A stretch of DNA of 32,907 bases from Verrucomicrobiales bacterium (GTDB lineage: Bacteria > Verrucomicrobiota > Verrucomicrobiia > Methylacidiphilales > JAAUTS01): NCBI GenBank assembly GCA_031266335.1, contig JAISBF010000081.1:1-32907 (forward strand), written 5' to 3'. Made by a program: the position numbers and the translations under genes. This document shows, in pieces, positions 11,279 to 19,635 of this stretch (the stretch's first letter is position 1; every line of letters starts with the position of its first letter). The notes under the pieces are model-generated. The model did no database searches. It was not told where the DNA came from and was given only the letters and a program-made list of their open reading frames with translations.

Positions 11279-11440
11279 AATTTCAAATTCCAAACTTCAA
11301 ATTCCAATTAATTTCCAAATTCAAATCTCCAAATCCCAAACTAGAGGCCGCTACCGCGCCAGCGGTGCTGGTTGATTTTTTTGTCGCTCTTTGAAATTTG
11401 GAGCTTAATTGGAGTTTGGAATTTGGAGTTTGGAATTTTT
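11279..11440. repeat. Module C hairpin
   Basis: Left arm C (TTCAAATTCCAAACTTCAAA, 11281 on) and inverted right arm (TTGGAGTTTGGAATTTGGAG, to 11440) with a GC-rich apex CTACCGCGCCAGCGGTGCTG. The right half is inside the open frame of the upstream gene and supplies its last residues. Confidence 0.9.
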
Positions 11441-11658
11441 TCTCTCACCGTCTGGTAACACGCCTCCAGTTCGCCGCTGACGGCCAGTGCCAAATCCGGC
11501 GCGAACTCCACGCAAAACTTTTTTCCGCCGTGGCATTCCACCCATAGCGTCACCCGCGCGTCCGGCGTCAGGGCGGTCAGGCCCGTTTGCGCCTCGACCG
11601 CGTGGAACACCACGGCGTGTGGGCTTTGAGCTTTGAGGTTTGCGCTTTGAGTTTTCAC
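11341..11658 (-). CDS. Small head-tail joining region protein bounded by translated repeats
   Basis: 105 aa. The GTG at 11658 overlaps the TGA of the gpG-like gene (GTGA), so the start is well placed. Residues 2-15 (KTQSANLKAQSPHA) are translated module K. Residues from about 72 on (REKIPNSKFQTPIKLQISKS and beyond) are translated module C. Only the middle (about residues 16-70, HAVVFHAVEAQTGLTALTPD through FAPDLALAVSGELEACYQTV) looks like a native protein. It is similar in size and place to Mu gp38-type small proteins. Function unknown. Confidence 0.55.
   Translation of the reverse strand: MKTQSANLKAQSPHAVVFHAVEAQTGLTALTPDARVTLWVECHGGKKFCVEFAPDLALAVSGELEACYQTVREKIPNSKFQTPIKLQISKSDKKINQHRWRGSGL
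11622..11657. repeat. Module K, inverted arm, inside a gene
   Basis: GGCTTTGAGCTTTGAGGTTT continuing to GAGTTTTCAC is the inverse of the K copy at 9174-9208. It encodes the first residues of the 105-aa protein. Confidence 0.7.
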
Positions 11659-13730: not shown

Positions 13731-13933
13731 AAGGAAATTCCAAACTCCAAATTCCAAAATCCAATTAACTCCGGCCACGAAGACGCGAAGGCGCGAAGGA
13801 TTTTTTACAGGGAGTTCATGGAGGACATGGAGCTTCTTTTTAAAACCTTCATGAACTCCATGGTCTCCCGGTAAAATATTTCTTGGCGCCTTGGCGTCTT
13901 GGTGGCCGGAGTTGTTTGGAGTTTGGAATTTCA
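13731..13933. repeat. Three-layer nested inverted repeat C-A-G/G'-A'-C'
   Basis: Order from left: C (13736-13767), the ACTCCGGCCACGAAGACGC junction and A (to 13805), G (13806-13833), a short loop with CTTCTTTTTAAAACC, then G' (13846-13875), A' (13880-13910) and C' (13914-13932). Every layer is matched by its inverted copy in mirror order. It fills the gap between the MuF-like and gp36-like genes and touches both. Confidence 0.95.
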
Positions 13934-14386
13934 CGCAAGCCCTCCCAGTTGACTTTTCGCCGCGACCCGCGGCGGGCGGTTGACCACCTCGACCGTGCCG
14001 CCGCCGGTGTCATCACCGTCAGCGGCGGGGTCCTCAATGGCGTAGTTGCACGCGGCGACGGCGCGGAGCAACGTCAGCGCGTCCTTGTACTCACCCTCGC
14101 GCAGCGCGTCAATCAGCCCCGCCATTTGCGGCAGGCGCGTGGCGACGCGGTAACGGATGATGTCCAGCGCCGAGGCTAACAATCGCTTGGGAATAGTGCC
14201 GGTGGCGCCGAGCGCGTTGTTCGGGCAGGCGGCGACGTAGCCGCGCACTTGGTCGGTCACTTGCGCGATGACCTCCGGCAGCGGGTCGCCCTGCCCGACG
14301 GCCATTGCCGCGGTGCGAAAGGCGTTCAACTCCGCGCCGGTGAGGCGGGTCTGCACGGCGGTCTCGGTGATGGTGATCCAGTTCAT
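13931..14386 (-). CDS. Mu gp36-like head completion protein (DUF1320-like)
   Basis: 151 aa from ATG 14386 (MNWITITETAVQTRLTGAEL). The 35 possible residues upstream are translated repeat B. An all-helical body (EVIAQVTDQVRGYVAACPNN, LLASALDIIRYRVATRLPQM, then a Leu/Ala helix) matches the gp36/DUF1320 family that follows the major head gene in Mu-like phages and closes the connector. Length is near the family norm (about 140). A C-terminal Gly/Asp-rich tail ends in KSQLGGLA. Confidence 0.7.
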   Translation of the reverse strand: MNWITITETAVQTRLTGAELNAFRTAAMAVGQGDPLPEVIAQVTDQVRGYVAACPNNALGATGTIPKRLLASALDIIRYRVATRLPQMAGLIDALREGEYKDALTLLRAVAACNYAIEDPAADGDDTGGGTVEVVNRPPRVAAKSQLGGLA

Positions 14387-16510: not shown

Positions 16511-17893
16511 TTATTTTTTGGCCTCCATCTCCGCCACCAAAGCGGGATGCGCCTTTTTCATCGCCGCCCAGGCCGCCGCCCAATCGTTGCCGAACCGCGG
16601 CAGCGCGTCGTTGACCAGGGCGGTGAATCGTTCCGCCGGCGTTTGGTCCGCGGCGGTTTTGCGACCGCCGAGGTTGCCGGCTGGCGAGGCGCCGCTGAAG
16701 CTCGCCGGCCGGCGGCGCAGTTGCGCCAGCGTGTCGTCGAACTTGGCGTGCAACTCGCTGTTGAAGAACGCGACCTCGGCGGCGGTGACGCGACCCTCGC
16801 GCACCAGGCCGTCAAGCTCGAGCTTGATGCGGGCGTCGCGCTCGCCGGCAAATTGCGTTTGCAACTCGGTGAGACGCGCTTTCAGCCCCGCGTTTTCAGC
16901 GGCGACGGCGGCGGGGTCGCTGGCAGGAATTAACTTTTGCAACTCCTCAACAGGCTTGTCGAAGAATTGCGCGACCTTGCCGAGCACGTCGGCGGGCAGC
17001 GTCTGGATGTCGCCGGCGAGCAAGCCGTTGACGGTAGATTCATCAACACCCGCCGCTTGCGCGAGTTCGGCGACGCTTTTATTGAAGGATTGCAACGCAC
17101 GGTTGAGATAATCGCCCAGCGCGCTGTTGGCGAGTCCGAGACGCGCCGTTTGCTTGAGTTTCGCCACCACGGTGTTGTCATCCGCCGTGTTCGGCAGTTT
17201 CAACAGGGTGCGGAACTCGTCCATTAGTATTTTATTCATGTCGTTTTCCGTGGATGGCAGTTGTTTGTTATAGTCGCCGCGCGCGCCATCGTTGCGCGTG
17301 TTGACCAAAAGGACGGTGCCCCTGATGTTGGGATTGTTGGTGAAACCGACGCTCTCCAACCAGACGGGCAGATAAACTTCCATGCCGCGCTCAACGCCGA
17401 TTTTCGGCCCGAGCACAAACGGCGAGTGAAACTTGTAGTGCGCGTTGTCGAGCATGACCTGGCCGGGCGCGCTCCATTTGACGCGACCGTAGAGACCGTC
17501 AGCGCGTTGCTCGACCGCCATGATCCAGCCGTAGGCTTTTTTGTCCGGGTAGGTCTTTTCCAGCCCGGGCACGTCGGGATGGCCGACATACCACGGGCGC
17601 CCCGCCCAGCGCGCGCCGGCGCGGGCGGCGGCGTCGTTGAAGTTGGCGACGATGTGCGCCGCGCTGTCGGCGTTGAAACGCTGCAAAACTTTCTTGTCCA
17701 GGCGCGCGCCGGTACGCATGTCCACCGGGCCGTCTTTTACCACGTCGCCGAAGGGGAAGACTTGCACCCAGTCGTCCACCAGCACGTGAAAGGCATTGGC
17801 GGCGCCGAGGAACTGACCGTCGGCGTCGGCGGGATCATAGTTGGCCAACGCGGGCAGATTGAGCCAGCGGCGACACCAATTGTTTTTAACCAC
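16511..17893 (-). CDS. Mu I-like prohead protease / scaffold protein
   Basis: 460 aa if started at GTG 17893. All upstream in-frame sequence is translated repeat. Residues about 15-180 match the Mu-like prophage I protein family: AAARAGARWAGRPWYVGHPD, the KKAYGWIMAVEQRADGLYGR motif, HYKFHSPFVLGPKIG and VGFTNNPNI. The H of GHPD and the S of FHSPF are the likely catalytic or conserved residues. The C-terminal 200 residues are the coiled-coil scaffold (AENAGLKARLTELQTQFAGE and following). Residues around VAELAQAAGVDESTVNGLLA look like a helix-turn-helix, odd for a scaffold. The GTG belongs to module E, so the start codon seems to be provided by a repeat. Confidence 0.8.
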   Translation of the reverse strand: MVKNNWCRRWLNLPALANYDPADADGQFLGAANAFHVLVDDWVQVFPFGDVVKDGPVDMRTGARLDKKVLQRFNADSAAHIVANFNDAAARAGARWAGRPWYVGHPDVPGLEKTYPDKKAYGWIMAVEQRADGLYGRVKWSAPGQVMLDNAHYKFHSPFVLGPKIGVERGMEVYLPVWLESVGFTNNPNIRGTVLLVNTRNDGARGDYNKQLPSTENDMNKILMDEFRTLLKLPNTADDNTVVAKLKQTARLGLANSALGDYLNRALQSFNKSVAELAQAAGVDESTVNGLLAGDIQTLPADVLGKVAQFFDKPVEELQKLIPASDPAAVAAENAGLKARLTELQTQFAGERDARIKLELDGLVREGRVTAAEVAFFNSELHAKFDDTLAQLRRRPASFSGASPAGNLGGRKTAADQTPAERFTALVNDALPRFGNDWAAAWAAMKKAHPALVAEMEAKK

Positions 17894-18147
17894 GAATGAA
17901 CACCAATGGACACGAAACTCCCGCCACGAAGACGCAACACCTAAAGTGGCAATTACACGCCGCTTCAAACTTTCCTGCGAAGCAGGCAGCAAGGCACGAA
18001 GGTTTTCTGGTTTATTAGTTTTCTGGTTTTCTAGTTGGCACGGCATCGTGTAACTCAAAAAACTAGAAAACCAAAAAACTAAAAAACGTTCCCTTCGGGT
18101 CTTGGCGTCTTCGTGGCCGGAGTTAATTGGCGTTTGGAATTTCATAC
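17886..18147. repeat. Composite repeat E-A(F)-H-A'-C'
   Basis: Order: E (17886-17915), the first half of A (CCGCCACGAAGACGC), F (17936-17993), the second half of A (AAGGCACGAAGG), H (17998-18088), A' (18091-18117) and C' (18124-18145). F splits A at the same point as at 21924. The C on the left is missing and replaced by E. Confidence 0.95.
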
Positions 18148-19635
18148 TTGCTCCTCGGTTAAGCCCTCGACAAGTTGCGCGCCGAGCACTTGCTCCCACG
18201 CCTTGACGGTCTCACCGTCAGCGCCTTTTAACAACTCCGGCAACTCGGCTTGGAGTTTGGCTAGTTCGGTGGCGAAGGCGTCACCGTCAGCGGCGAGCAG
18301 TTGTTCCAACCGCGCCGTCAGCGGCTGGTCGGCGCGCGCCAGTAGTGCCGCAAAGTTTTTGGGCAATTCGGTATTTGGAAATTGGAGCTTATTTGGAGTT
18401 TGGAATTTGGATTCTGGAGTTTGCGCCGTTAGCGCCGGCTCGCCCGCTTCCGCCTCGCTGCGGCCGTAACGTTCCAGCGTCTCGCGCGTGGAAAGCCGCG
18501 CGCCGTTTCTAACCAGGAAATCATCAACCTTAAGGTCTTGGTCAATATTTTTCCGCGCGGGCGGCTCAAGCTCGAAATAGGCCAGCGGTTCCTCCGCGCC
18601 GAAAAAATAGCGGATGACCGCCGGGTCAATCTGTTGCTGCAACGCCTCGCTGACCATGACGCAATCGTCCTCCAACAGCAAATCGCCCTCGCGTCCCTGC
18701 AAGCTCGCGCCCGCGCCGTCACCCGTGCCGGCGCTGATGGTGGAGAGGTCGGCGCCGCGCCACAACGCGGCGAGCGCGCGGTCCATGCGCTCCGTCAGCG
18801 CGCTTTGCGGCATGGTGCCCTGGGCGCTGGCGGTGATGAGTTCGATTAGTTCCTCCCGGTTCACCACCGCGCCGCCGTCGCCGATGAAACTCCGCACGGC
18901 GTCCGCCATCGCCCGCCAGTCGTCGGTGCCCTTGGTGGCCGAGGTTTTGCCGAGGACGTAAGGCAGGCCGAAGCGCTCGCAATAGGAGAGCCAGTCGCGC
19001 AACGGCAAATGTTTGAACATGTATGCGACCGCGCTGGCCGGCCCGAGGCCGTCGCCGGCGGTGACGAGCCATTTGTTAGGTTCCAGCGGCGCGCCGTCAA
19101 TGCTGCCCTCATAAGGCAGGAAGCGCAGTCGTGCGGTGGTGTTCTCGAAAAACCACAGCGGCACAAACCGAAACTCGGCGGTCAGCCCGCCGTCAGCGGA
19201 CGGCTGCCAGAGGATTTCATGCGCGGCCTTGCCGAAGCCGACCGAGGTCATCATCTGCTGCACCAACAGCCGCGCGCCGCCGCGCCGGTCCTCGTCCAAC
19301 GCCTCGGTGGCGGTGAGGTTGTTGTAAAAAAACTCCAGCTTTTGCTTGTGTTCCTCGGCGCGCGCGGCTTGGGCTTGGTCGCTGCCGGTGTCGGTTTTGA
19401 CGATGCGCCACGGGCGGCGGCTGGTGTCCTTGCAACGCTTTGGCACGACGGCCCTCAAAACGTCATCGCGCTCGAACATCTTGTCCAGTGTCCGCGCGAA
19501 CGCGGGCAGGTAGCCGATGGCGAACGAATCCATCTGCGCGGACAACAGTTGCGGCGTCAGGTTGGCAATCGGGTTGTACCGCGACCGCTTTTCCTGCGCG
19601 ACCCGCTCGGGCGTGATGGCGGAAGCGGCGCTCAT
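18142..19635 (-). CDS. Portal protein (Mu gp29-like, DUF935 family)
   Basis: 497 aa starting MSAASAITPERVAQEKRSRY. Family segments are visible in order: NPIANLTPQLLSAQMDSFAI, DKMFERDDVLRAVVPKR, KRRPW-like SRRPWRIVKTD, AHEILWQPSADGG, FRFVPLWFFEN, KHLPLRDWLSYCERFGLPYV, and a stem region with LQQQIDPAVIRYFFG. It forms the dodecameric DNA gate at the head vertex. Residues about 404-422 (SKFQTPNKLQFPNTELPK) are translated module C. They lie between the portal core and the C-terminal helical region, so the repeat has entered a surface linker in frame. Codons elsewhere are ordinary. Confidence 0.9.
   Translation of the reverse strand: MSAASAITPERVAQEKRSRYNPIANLTPQLLSAQMDSFAIGYLPAFARTLDKMFERDDVLRAVVPKRCKDTSRRPWRIVKTDTGSDQAQAARAEEHKQKLEFFYNNLTATEALDEDRRGGARLLVQQMMTSVGFGKAAHEILWQPSADGGLTAEFRFVPLWFFENTTARLRFLPYEGSIDGAPLEPNKWLVTAGDGLGPASAVAYMFKHLPLRDWLSYCERFGLPYVLGKTSATKGTDDWRAMADAVRSFIGDGGAVVNREELIELITASAQGTMPQSALTERMDRALAALWRGADLSTISAGTGDGAGASLQGREGDLLLEDDCVMVSEALQQQIDPAVIRYFFGAEEPLAYFELEPPARKNIDQDLKVDDFLVRNGARLSTRETLERYGRSEAEAGEPALTAQTPESKFQTPNKLQFPNTELPKNFAALLARADQPLTARLEQLLAADGDAFATELAKLQAELPELLKGADGETVKAWEQVLGAQLVEGLTEEQV
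18370..18422. repeat. Module C inside the portal gene, in frame
   Basis: Contains GGTATTTGGAAATTGGAGCT, TTTGGAGTTTGGAATTTGG and TCTGGAGTTTG, the C' sequence of the intergenic repeats. The A/T-rich composition contrasts with the surrounding coding DNA. No stop is introduced on the coding strand. Confidence 0.9.

Follow-up and report, generated by a model that had tools for sequence, protein, structure and literature searches.

How does a repeat that is mostly intergenic come to lie in frame inside the gene for a phage portal protein? The question is raised by a Mu-like prophage, with profile matches to a portal (PF06074), a Mu-like protease I (PF10123), and a terminase, in a stretch of 32,907 nucleotides (here, the window) that constitutes contig 198 of a 222-contig, 2.77-Mb assembly that is 78% complete (genome G000). 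A preliminary description had placed a copy of repeat module C, designated C', within the portal gene. It regarded this copy as direct evidence that the modules move and can be accepted into proteins, similar in principle to the Rickettsia palindromic elements (RPEs).

A solo repeat arm in the portal gene

The portal gene (Table 1) has no internal stop codons, and its match to PF06074 spans positions 3 to 335 of the 336 in the profile, the whole-core match expected of a Mu-type portal. C' corresponds to residues ~404 to 421, past the end of the profile match at residue 391, and reads as the array AAC TCCAGAA TCCAAAT TCCAAAC TCCAAAT AAGC TCCAATT TCCAAAT. The gene keeps the conserved reading frame both before and after C', and the C-terminal region aligns with homologues. 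These results bear out the earlier statements that module C lies in frame in the portal gene, that it sits between the conserved core and the C-terminal helices, and that the frame stays open. The statement that about 18 residues are a plain translation of C' is correct for TPESKFQTPNKLQFPN but not for TELPK, the last residues of the peptide then quoted, which have no heptamer origin. TELPK may be a decayed copy of module AACGCTGAACTACCCCG, which comes after 24 of 131 C arms (0.8% by chance), or it may be ancestral linker. Its resemblance to AACGCTGAACTACCCCG is weak (10 of 15 positions by manual count, all differences being transitions; 8 mismatches in 18 in the automatic best match).

The portal linker evolves fast, and its peptide could have arisen independently and merely resemble C. 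However, the 19-nucleotide core TTGGAGTTTGGAATTTGGA is matched exactly within the ~50-nucleotide array, and with up to three mismatches it has 12 matches in the window where 0.01 is expected. A coincidence of this kind is extremely improbable and is contradicted by the DNA match.

No inverted partner of C' was found between positions 17800 and 19000. As RNA the portal copy folded no better than shuffled sequences (z = -0.4); complete two-armed C elements folded far better than shuffles (z = -6.8 and -6.3). Therefore, the portal copy is a solo arm.

Table 1. Features of the portal gene, C-type arms in the window, and the second protein gene with an internal C arm (window positions unless a locus is given)
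Feature	Position	Strand	Basis or remark
Mu-type portal gene	18142-19635	-	497 aa; PF06074, E = 2.1e-59; phrog_113 portal
Portal_Mu core, residues 49-391	18463-19491	-	Profile match, PF06074
C', solo heptamer arm, in frame, reads TPESKFQTPNKLQFPN	18370-18424	-	Exact core match at 18393-18411; without inverted partner
TELPK, origin uncertain	18358-18372	-	Weak match to module AACGCTGAACTACCCCG
C-terminal (putatively helical) portal region past C'	18145-18345	-	Aligned with homologues and paralogue L032; conserved frame
Further short C-type arm (AAATTCCAAACGCCAATTAA) adjoining the stop codon of the portal gene	18120-18142	-	Sequence reading; repeat family D11
C arm in the C-terminal tail NSKFQTPIKLQISK of ORF 11341-11658	11409-11441	-	Reading frame as in the portal
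Inverted partner of 11409-11441, jointly a complete hairpin element	11282-11332	+	z = -6.8
C arm, outer left, around a B element	13732-13764	+	Pattern match
C arm, outer right, nested element with 13732-13764	13916-13934	-	Pattern match
tgt with in-frame C arm and second periodic array AATAATCAATATTCAATAATCAATAATCAA	L061:3867-5102		Same in G003, shorter in G004, none in other relatives

The repeat modules of the window sort into several families, and a search of the window against Rfam gave no match. The gap between the portal and protease genes (17882 to 18142) holds nested modules E, B, a AAAACTAGAAAACC-type hairpin, B, and C. The first-start protease ORF (16511 to 18199) reads back through these modules and is probably mis-extended at its start. 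The Mu-like protease I protein (16511 to 18082) also has a Cro/C1-type helix-turn-helix match inside the PF10123 match region. Elsewhere in the window, a phage protein (12325 to 13764) has a C-terminal PBECR1 nuclease-like domain (PF18809, E = 1.1e-8), and 48-bp units form a tandem array at 814 to 1053.

Insertion or replacement in the portal linker

The preliminary description had expected an alignment of portal homologues to reveal a clean insertion. It did not. The linker is 40 amino acids long in the portal studied here and 19 to 87 amino acids in homologues in which a linker is present, with unrelated sequences. No close relatives of the portal were found among genome contigs or viral contigs. 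The nearest portal by search score, from genome G198, is ~50% identical over the core, and phage portals are at most 27% identical among the matches listed. The portal has no empty site to compare because close relatives were not found. Because linker length varies and an empty site in a close relative is lacking, the portal does not show a clean insertion. Furthermore, the linker is not longer than that of most homologues, and replacement is therefore as possible as insertion. Solved portal structures match residues 16 to 314 only, and thus the linker has no structural placement. A short AN(A/E)-type motif, possibly a processing site, recurs in the otherwise unconserved linker of many homologues.

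The homologues were also informative on the source of the segment. The same segment in homologues without the repeat had been named as the finding that would refute the earlier reading. No such homologue was among those found: the C' segment is absent from all of them and from the in-genome paralogue L032, which has a similar C-terminal region. Taken by itself, the portal shows that the C' sequence comes from repeat C, not that it was cleanly inserted.

Repeat C in related genomes

Repeat C is an array of the heptamers TCCAAAT and TCCAAAC, and a complete element consists of two inverted arms with a short GC-rich center. With up to two mismatches, TTGGAGTTTGGAATTTGGA has 55 copies in the 2.77-Mb genome G000, compared with none for the reversed pattern. 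There are 58 copies in G003 and 35 in G004, which are congeners of G000, one each in a further congener (G002) and in G005, and 0 to 2 in the rest of the order. Repeat C is multicopy in G000, G003, and G004 and all but missing from other members of the order.

The C sites are mostly common to G000 and G003, with flanks that are mostly 92 to 99% identical. However, a ~160-bp C element at L222 of G003 is missing at the G000 counterpart L071, and a ~235-bp C element at L209 of G003 is missing at the counterpart L094. C elements can be present in one and absent from the other of two near-identical genomes. No target-site duplication is definable at either pair of loci, and gain is not distinguishable from loss. 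For the portal copy, it goes too far to speak of direct evidence for movement of the modules. Turnover of C elements is shown at other loci, and the earlier interpretation as a whole is partly supported.

An inner inverted sequence, ATAGCGCAGCTTGCGC, lies around a four-helix gene in G002 (L142:430-980) and also lies in the center of a G000 C element (L071:4139-4275), which suggests that arms and centers have been exchanged.

An in-frame C arm in tgt, with empty sites in relatives

A scan for C arms inside open frames, which covered 27 genome stretches (188 kb) and the window, yielded one further unambiguous internal case in addition to the portal. This is tgt, which encodes tRNA-guanosine(34) transglycosylase (TIGR00430, E = 3.6e-146), with a profile match that is split around the insertion. 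In the order, the stretch that runs from MAFDEC to FGIVQGG measures 50 to 58 amino acids, and the congener G002 has the plain form of 54 amino acids. It is 86 amino acids long in G000 and G003, in which it contains AEIPNSKLQIPIKLQAPNAKLQNADGDAPANNQY(S/L)IINNQLLFG, and 61 amino acids long in G004, in which it contains AEIPNSKLQIPNHQQLLFG. The left junction is common to G000, G003, and G004 at the DNA level, and the genomes with the insertion are exactly the three that are rich in C. Thus, a C arm lies in frame inside tgt, and relatives have empty sites. These empty sites, together with unrelated in-frame heptamer arrays in other portals, uphold the earlier claim that the modules can be accepted into proteins, and do so more firmly than the portal by itself would.

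Two open frames that cross a complete C element were not scored as insertions. At L065 (2951 to 6136), a single open frame of 1,062 codons consists of two PEP-CTERM proteins joined via a complete C element; another C arm forms the C-terminal tail of this frame. At L094, the part of the frame upstream of a DegQ-like protease looks noncoding.

The tgt insertion bears on three other explanations for the portal copy. One is that the arrays are heptamer microsatellites of the ordinary kind, which arise and expand in place at tolerant linkers, with no element having moved. The array in tgt differs in length between G004 and the pair G000 and G003, and heptamer variants change between copies, as might be expected from local slippage. 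However, dozens of unlinked sites have the same heptamers together with a recurring TTAA/AAGC interruption and flanking module, C is confined to one subclade, and the complete elements are inverted pairs with long hairpins. We consider slippage distinctly unlikely. Another possibility is recombination or gene conversion, without transposition, from intergenic C arms of the same prophage into the portal gene; the window holds several C arms, one of which abuts the portal's own stop codon. This is also unlikely, if slightly less so, because tgt is a chromosomal gene and no neighboring source copy was seen for its insertion and because the arms have little common flank that ordinary recombination could use. 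The third possibility is an assembly chimera or a sequencing artifact in the contig, given that the assembly is fragmented into 222 contigs and that repeats often cause misjoins. The presence of the same tgt insertion in a second assembly, G003, argues against an artifact, as do the conserved frame on both sides of C' within one gene and the parallel portal case in G155, which is a single contig. An artifact is very improbable.

Different heptamer arrays in other portals

Portals of two other genomes hold different heptamer arrays in frame. G155 is a genome of another family, and its portal is ~38% identical to the one studied here. In the same linker the G155 portal has GTQLSALNPQLSS, encoded by ACTCAAC TCTCAGC TCTCAAC CCTCAAC. 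This heptamer has ~270 matches in the G155 genome, a count for which the reversed-pattern control is invalid because a reversed periodic pattern is nearly the same as itself. The G198 portal has two in-frame copies of CGCTCAACGCTCAACGCGTTGCGC, one in the linker and one in a core loop, which reads WKPSDAPRSTLNAQRVALTAEFRF, compared with WQPSADGGLTAEFRF in the portal studied here. The core of CGCTCAACGCTCAACGCGTTGCGC has 12 matches in 285 kb of G198, several of them in or beside the portal gene, versus none in Markov controls. Of all the portal linkers tested, those of G000, G155, and G198 have the strongest nontriplet period, which is 7 in each.

Repeats built in this style, though unlike C in sequence, occur in the portals of two distant relatives, and such repeats can therefore add stretches to proteins, probably without breaking them. 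From the sequences compared, portal linkers and loops appear to be places where such repeats land repeatedly or are at any rate tolerated.

The heptamer structure may help to explain why frames stay open. A tandem heptamer encodes one cyclic peptide in all three frames. For TCCAAAT this is SKFQIPN, and the reverse strand encodes IWNLEFG. TCCAAAT arrays are stop-free on both strands; TCTCAAC and CGCTCAA arrays lack stops in one orientation only, the one seen in the portals. However, ~69% of all heptamers read without a stop on any one strand, and therefore this is a permissive property rather than a special adaptation. The net length of the array still has to be a multiple of 3.

GxxExxY and four-helix genes between inverted arms

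GxxExxY genes (PF13366/TIGR04256; PDDEXK_3) and genes for four-helix proteins (S23p; PF05635/TIGR02436) often sit between inverted arms built in the style of C. In G000, all five GxxExxY genes lie between inverted arms, formed by modules B, F, F, and E at four of them and by a similar array at the fifth, and the single four-helix gene is flanked by inverted GTAGTTAGTAG-type arms. The six genes are at L085 to L089 and at L090, at ~1400 to 1950 in each. The modules around four of the GxxExxY genes are also dispersed in the window.

Inverted arms (score of at least 14) were present at 33 of 61 GxxExxY or four-helix loci from the order, most of them four-helix, compared with 2 of 400 random positions; about half of the 61 loci have no clear arms. 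Many of the arms repeat with a period of 7 or 8, in units that vary by locus. Several consist of modules found scattered elsewhere in the respective genome or in a congener. For example, module A flanks a four-helix gene in the congener G003 (L119), and a four-helix gene of G155 (L194) is flanked by arms of TCTCAAC, the unit also found in the G155 portal. True C arms were not found around any four-helix or GxxExxY gene of G000, G003, or G004. C itself may be linked to these elements by analogy, to which the C-like arms (ATTGCCAATTTCCAATCGCCAAATGCCAATTAAAA) that flank the four-helix gene L145 in G040 also contribute.

A literature search found no paper linking GxxExxY or four-helix proteins to dispersed repeats, and to our knowledge neither the GxxExxY nor the four-helix S23p proteins have an established function.

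Comparison with known repeats

RPEs are described as interspersed palindromic repeats that are intergenic and also lie in frame inside unrelated protein genes, with the frame kept open, and as whole elements of ~150 bp (PMC10969869, citing Ogata et al. 2000). Measured against that description, C is similar in that it also lies in frame inside unrelated protein genes, the portal and tgt. However, C' is one heptamer arm, ~55 nucleotides long, rather than a complete palindrome of ~100 to 150 bp, with no partner and no hairpin. Repeats in the style of C also differ in that they go with GxxExxY and four-helix genes and enter a phage structural gene. Thus, the proposed similarity to RPEs holds for the outcome, an in-frame repeat in an open frame, but not for membership. 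By analogy, C' works like an RPE, which is a statement of likeness rather than of identity.

The intervening sequence (IVS) in the 23S rRNA of Coxiella burnetii has an S23p ORF between terminal inverted repeats that form a 28-bp stem, and the ORF is preceded by tandem heptamers; the element lies in helix 45, adopts a long stem structure, and is excised by RNase III (PMC4990558). Inverted arms with heptamers are likewise present in complete C elements and at four-helix genes, though not in the solo portal copy. In contrast to the IVS, the G000 C elements examined are too short for an S23p ORF, although related arms elsewhere do enclose one. The loci described here lie between or inside protein genes, the portal copy being in a protein gene, and most copies have no ORF.

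REP and REPIN sequences, which are associated with RAYT transposases, are short interspersed palindromes, often in inverted pairs (PMC2817692, PMC3116915), and REPs are described as 20 to 40 bp long, most with GTAG or CGTC tags (PMC3733652). C is also short, interspersed, and found in inverted pairs. A RAYT origin of C was not supported: none of the five Y1 transposase (PF01797) loci of G000 has adjacent C arms, and only F-type matches, more than 1 kb away, were present at two of the five. Enterobacterial RU/ERIC sequences are MITE-like repeats with open frames, in units of 127, 168, or 103 bp, and also occur inside genes (PMC2759123). C likewise occurs inside genes with open frames. As for MITEs in general, complete C elements have inverted repeats, no target-site duplication was definable at the two pairs of loci that differ between G000 and G003, and the autonomous partner is putative. 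We know of no heptamer structure in RU/ERIC. The heptanucleotide STRR repeats of cyanobacteria are, like C, interspersed tandem heptamers that are mostly intergenic. We are not aware of any description of STRR repeats as inverted arms around four-helix or GxxExxY genes.

Possible origin of the portal copy and its implications

On balance, we favor the explanation that C' is a solo arm of the host-typical repeat C in a variable portal linker and that it got there by entry of an arm derived from a GxxExxY/four-helix element; we regard this as probable rather than settled. The dispersed arms would be nonautonomous ends, remnants, or ORF-less forms of small GxxExxY/four-helix elements. An element or arm would have entered the portal linker, and the partner arm would afterwards have been lost, or would never have been inserted. 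The portal arm would thus have arrived through movement of an element. The candidate movers are the four-helix protein, the GxxExxY protein, or host repair, and of these we infer a GxxExxY or four-helix protein. The portal copy may have been kept because a unit of 7 is cyclic in all frames and stop-free on both strands and because the fold tolerates change at that site; the net length modulo 3 would decide whether an inserted copy survives. The portal and Tgt proteins with a repeat segment presumably work.

It is conceivable, but on present evidence somewhat doubtful, that heptamer-armed GxxExxY/S23p elements are a broad and largely unrecognized class of mobile element that includes the 23S rRNA IVS, with solo arms that spread and enter proteins. 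If so, solo arms would enter proteins easily because a unit of 7 gives the same peptide in every frame, and portal linkers would be recurrent landing sites.

In-frame repeats in bacterial proteins are best known from Rickettsia, and here a repeat of a different style does likewise, in a housekeeping enzyme and in the phage portals of three genomes, with empty sites and near-identical genomes as natural controls. These loci also hint at where the interspersed repeats of these bacteria come from and at a possible role for the GxxExxY and four-helix S23p proteins.
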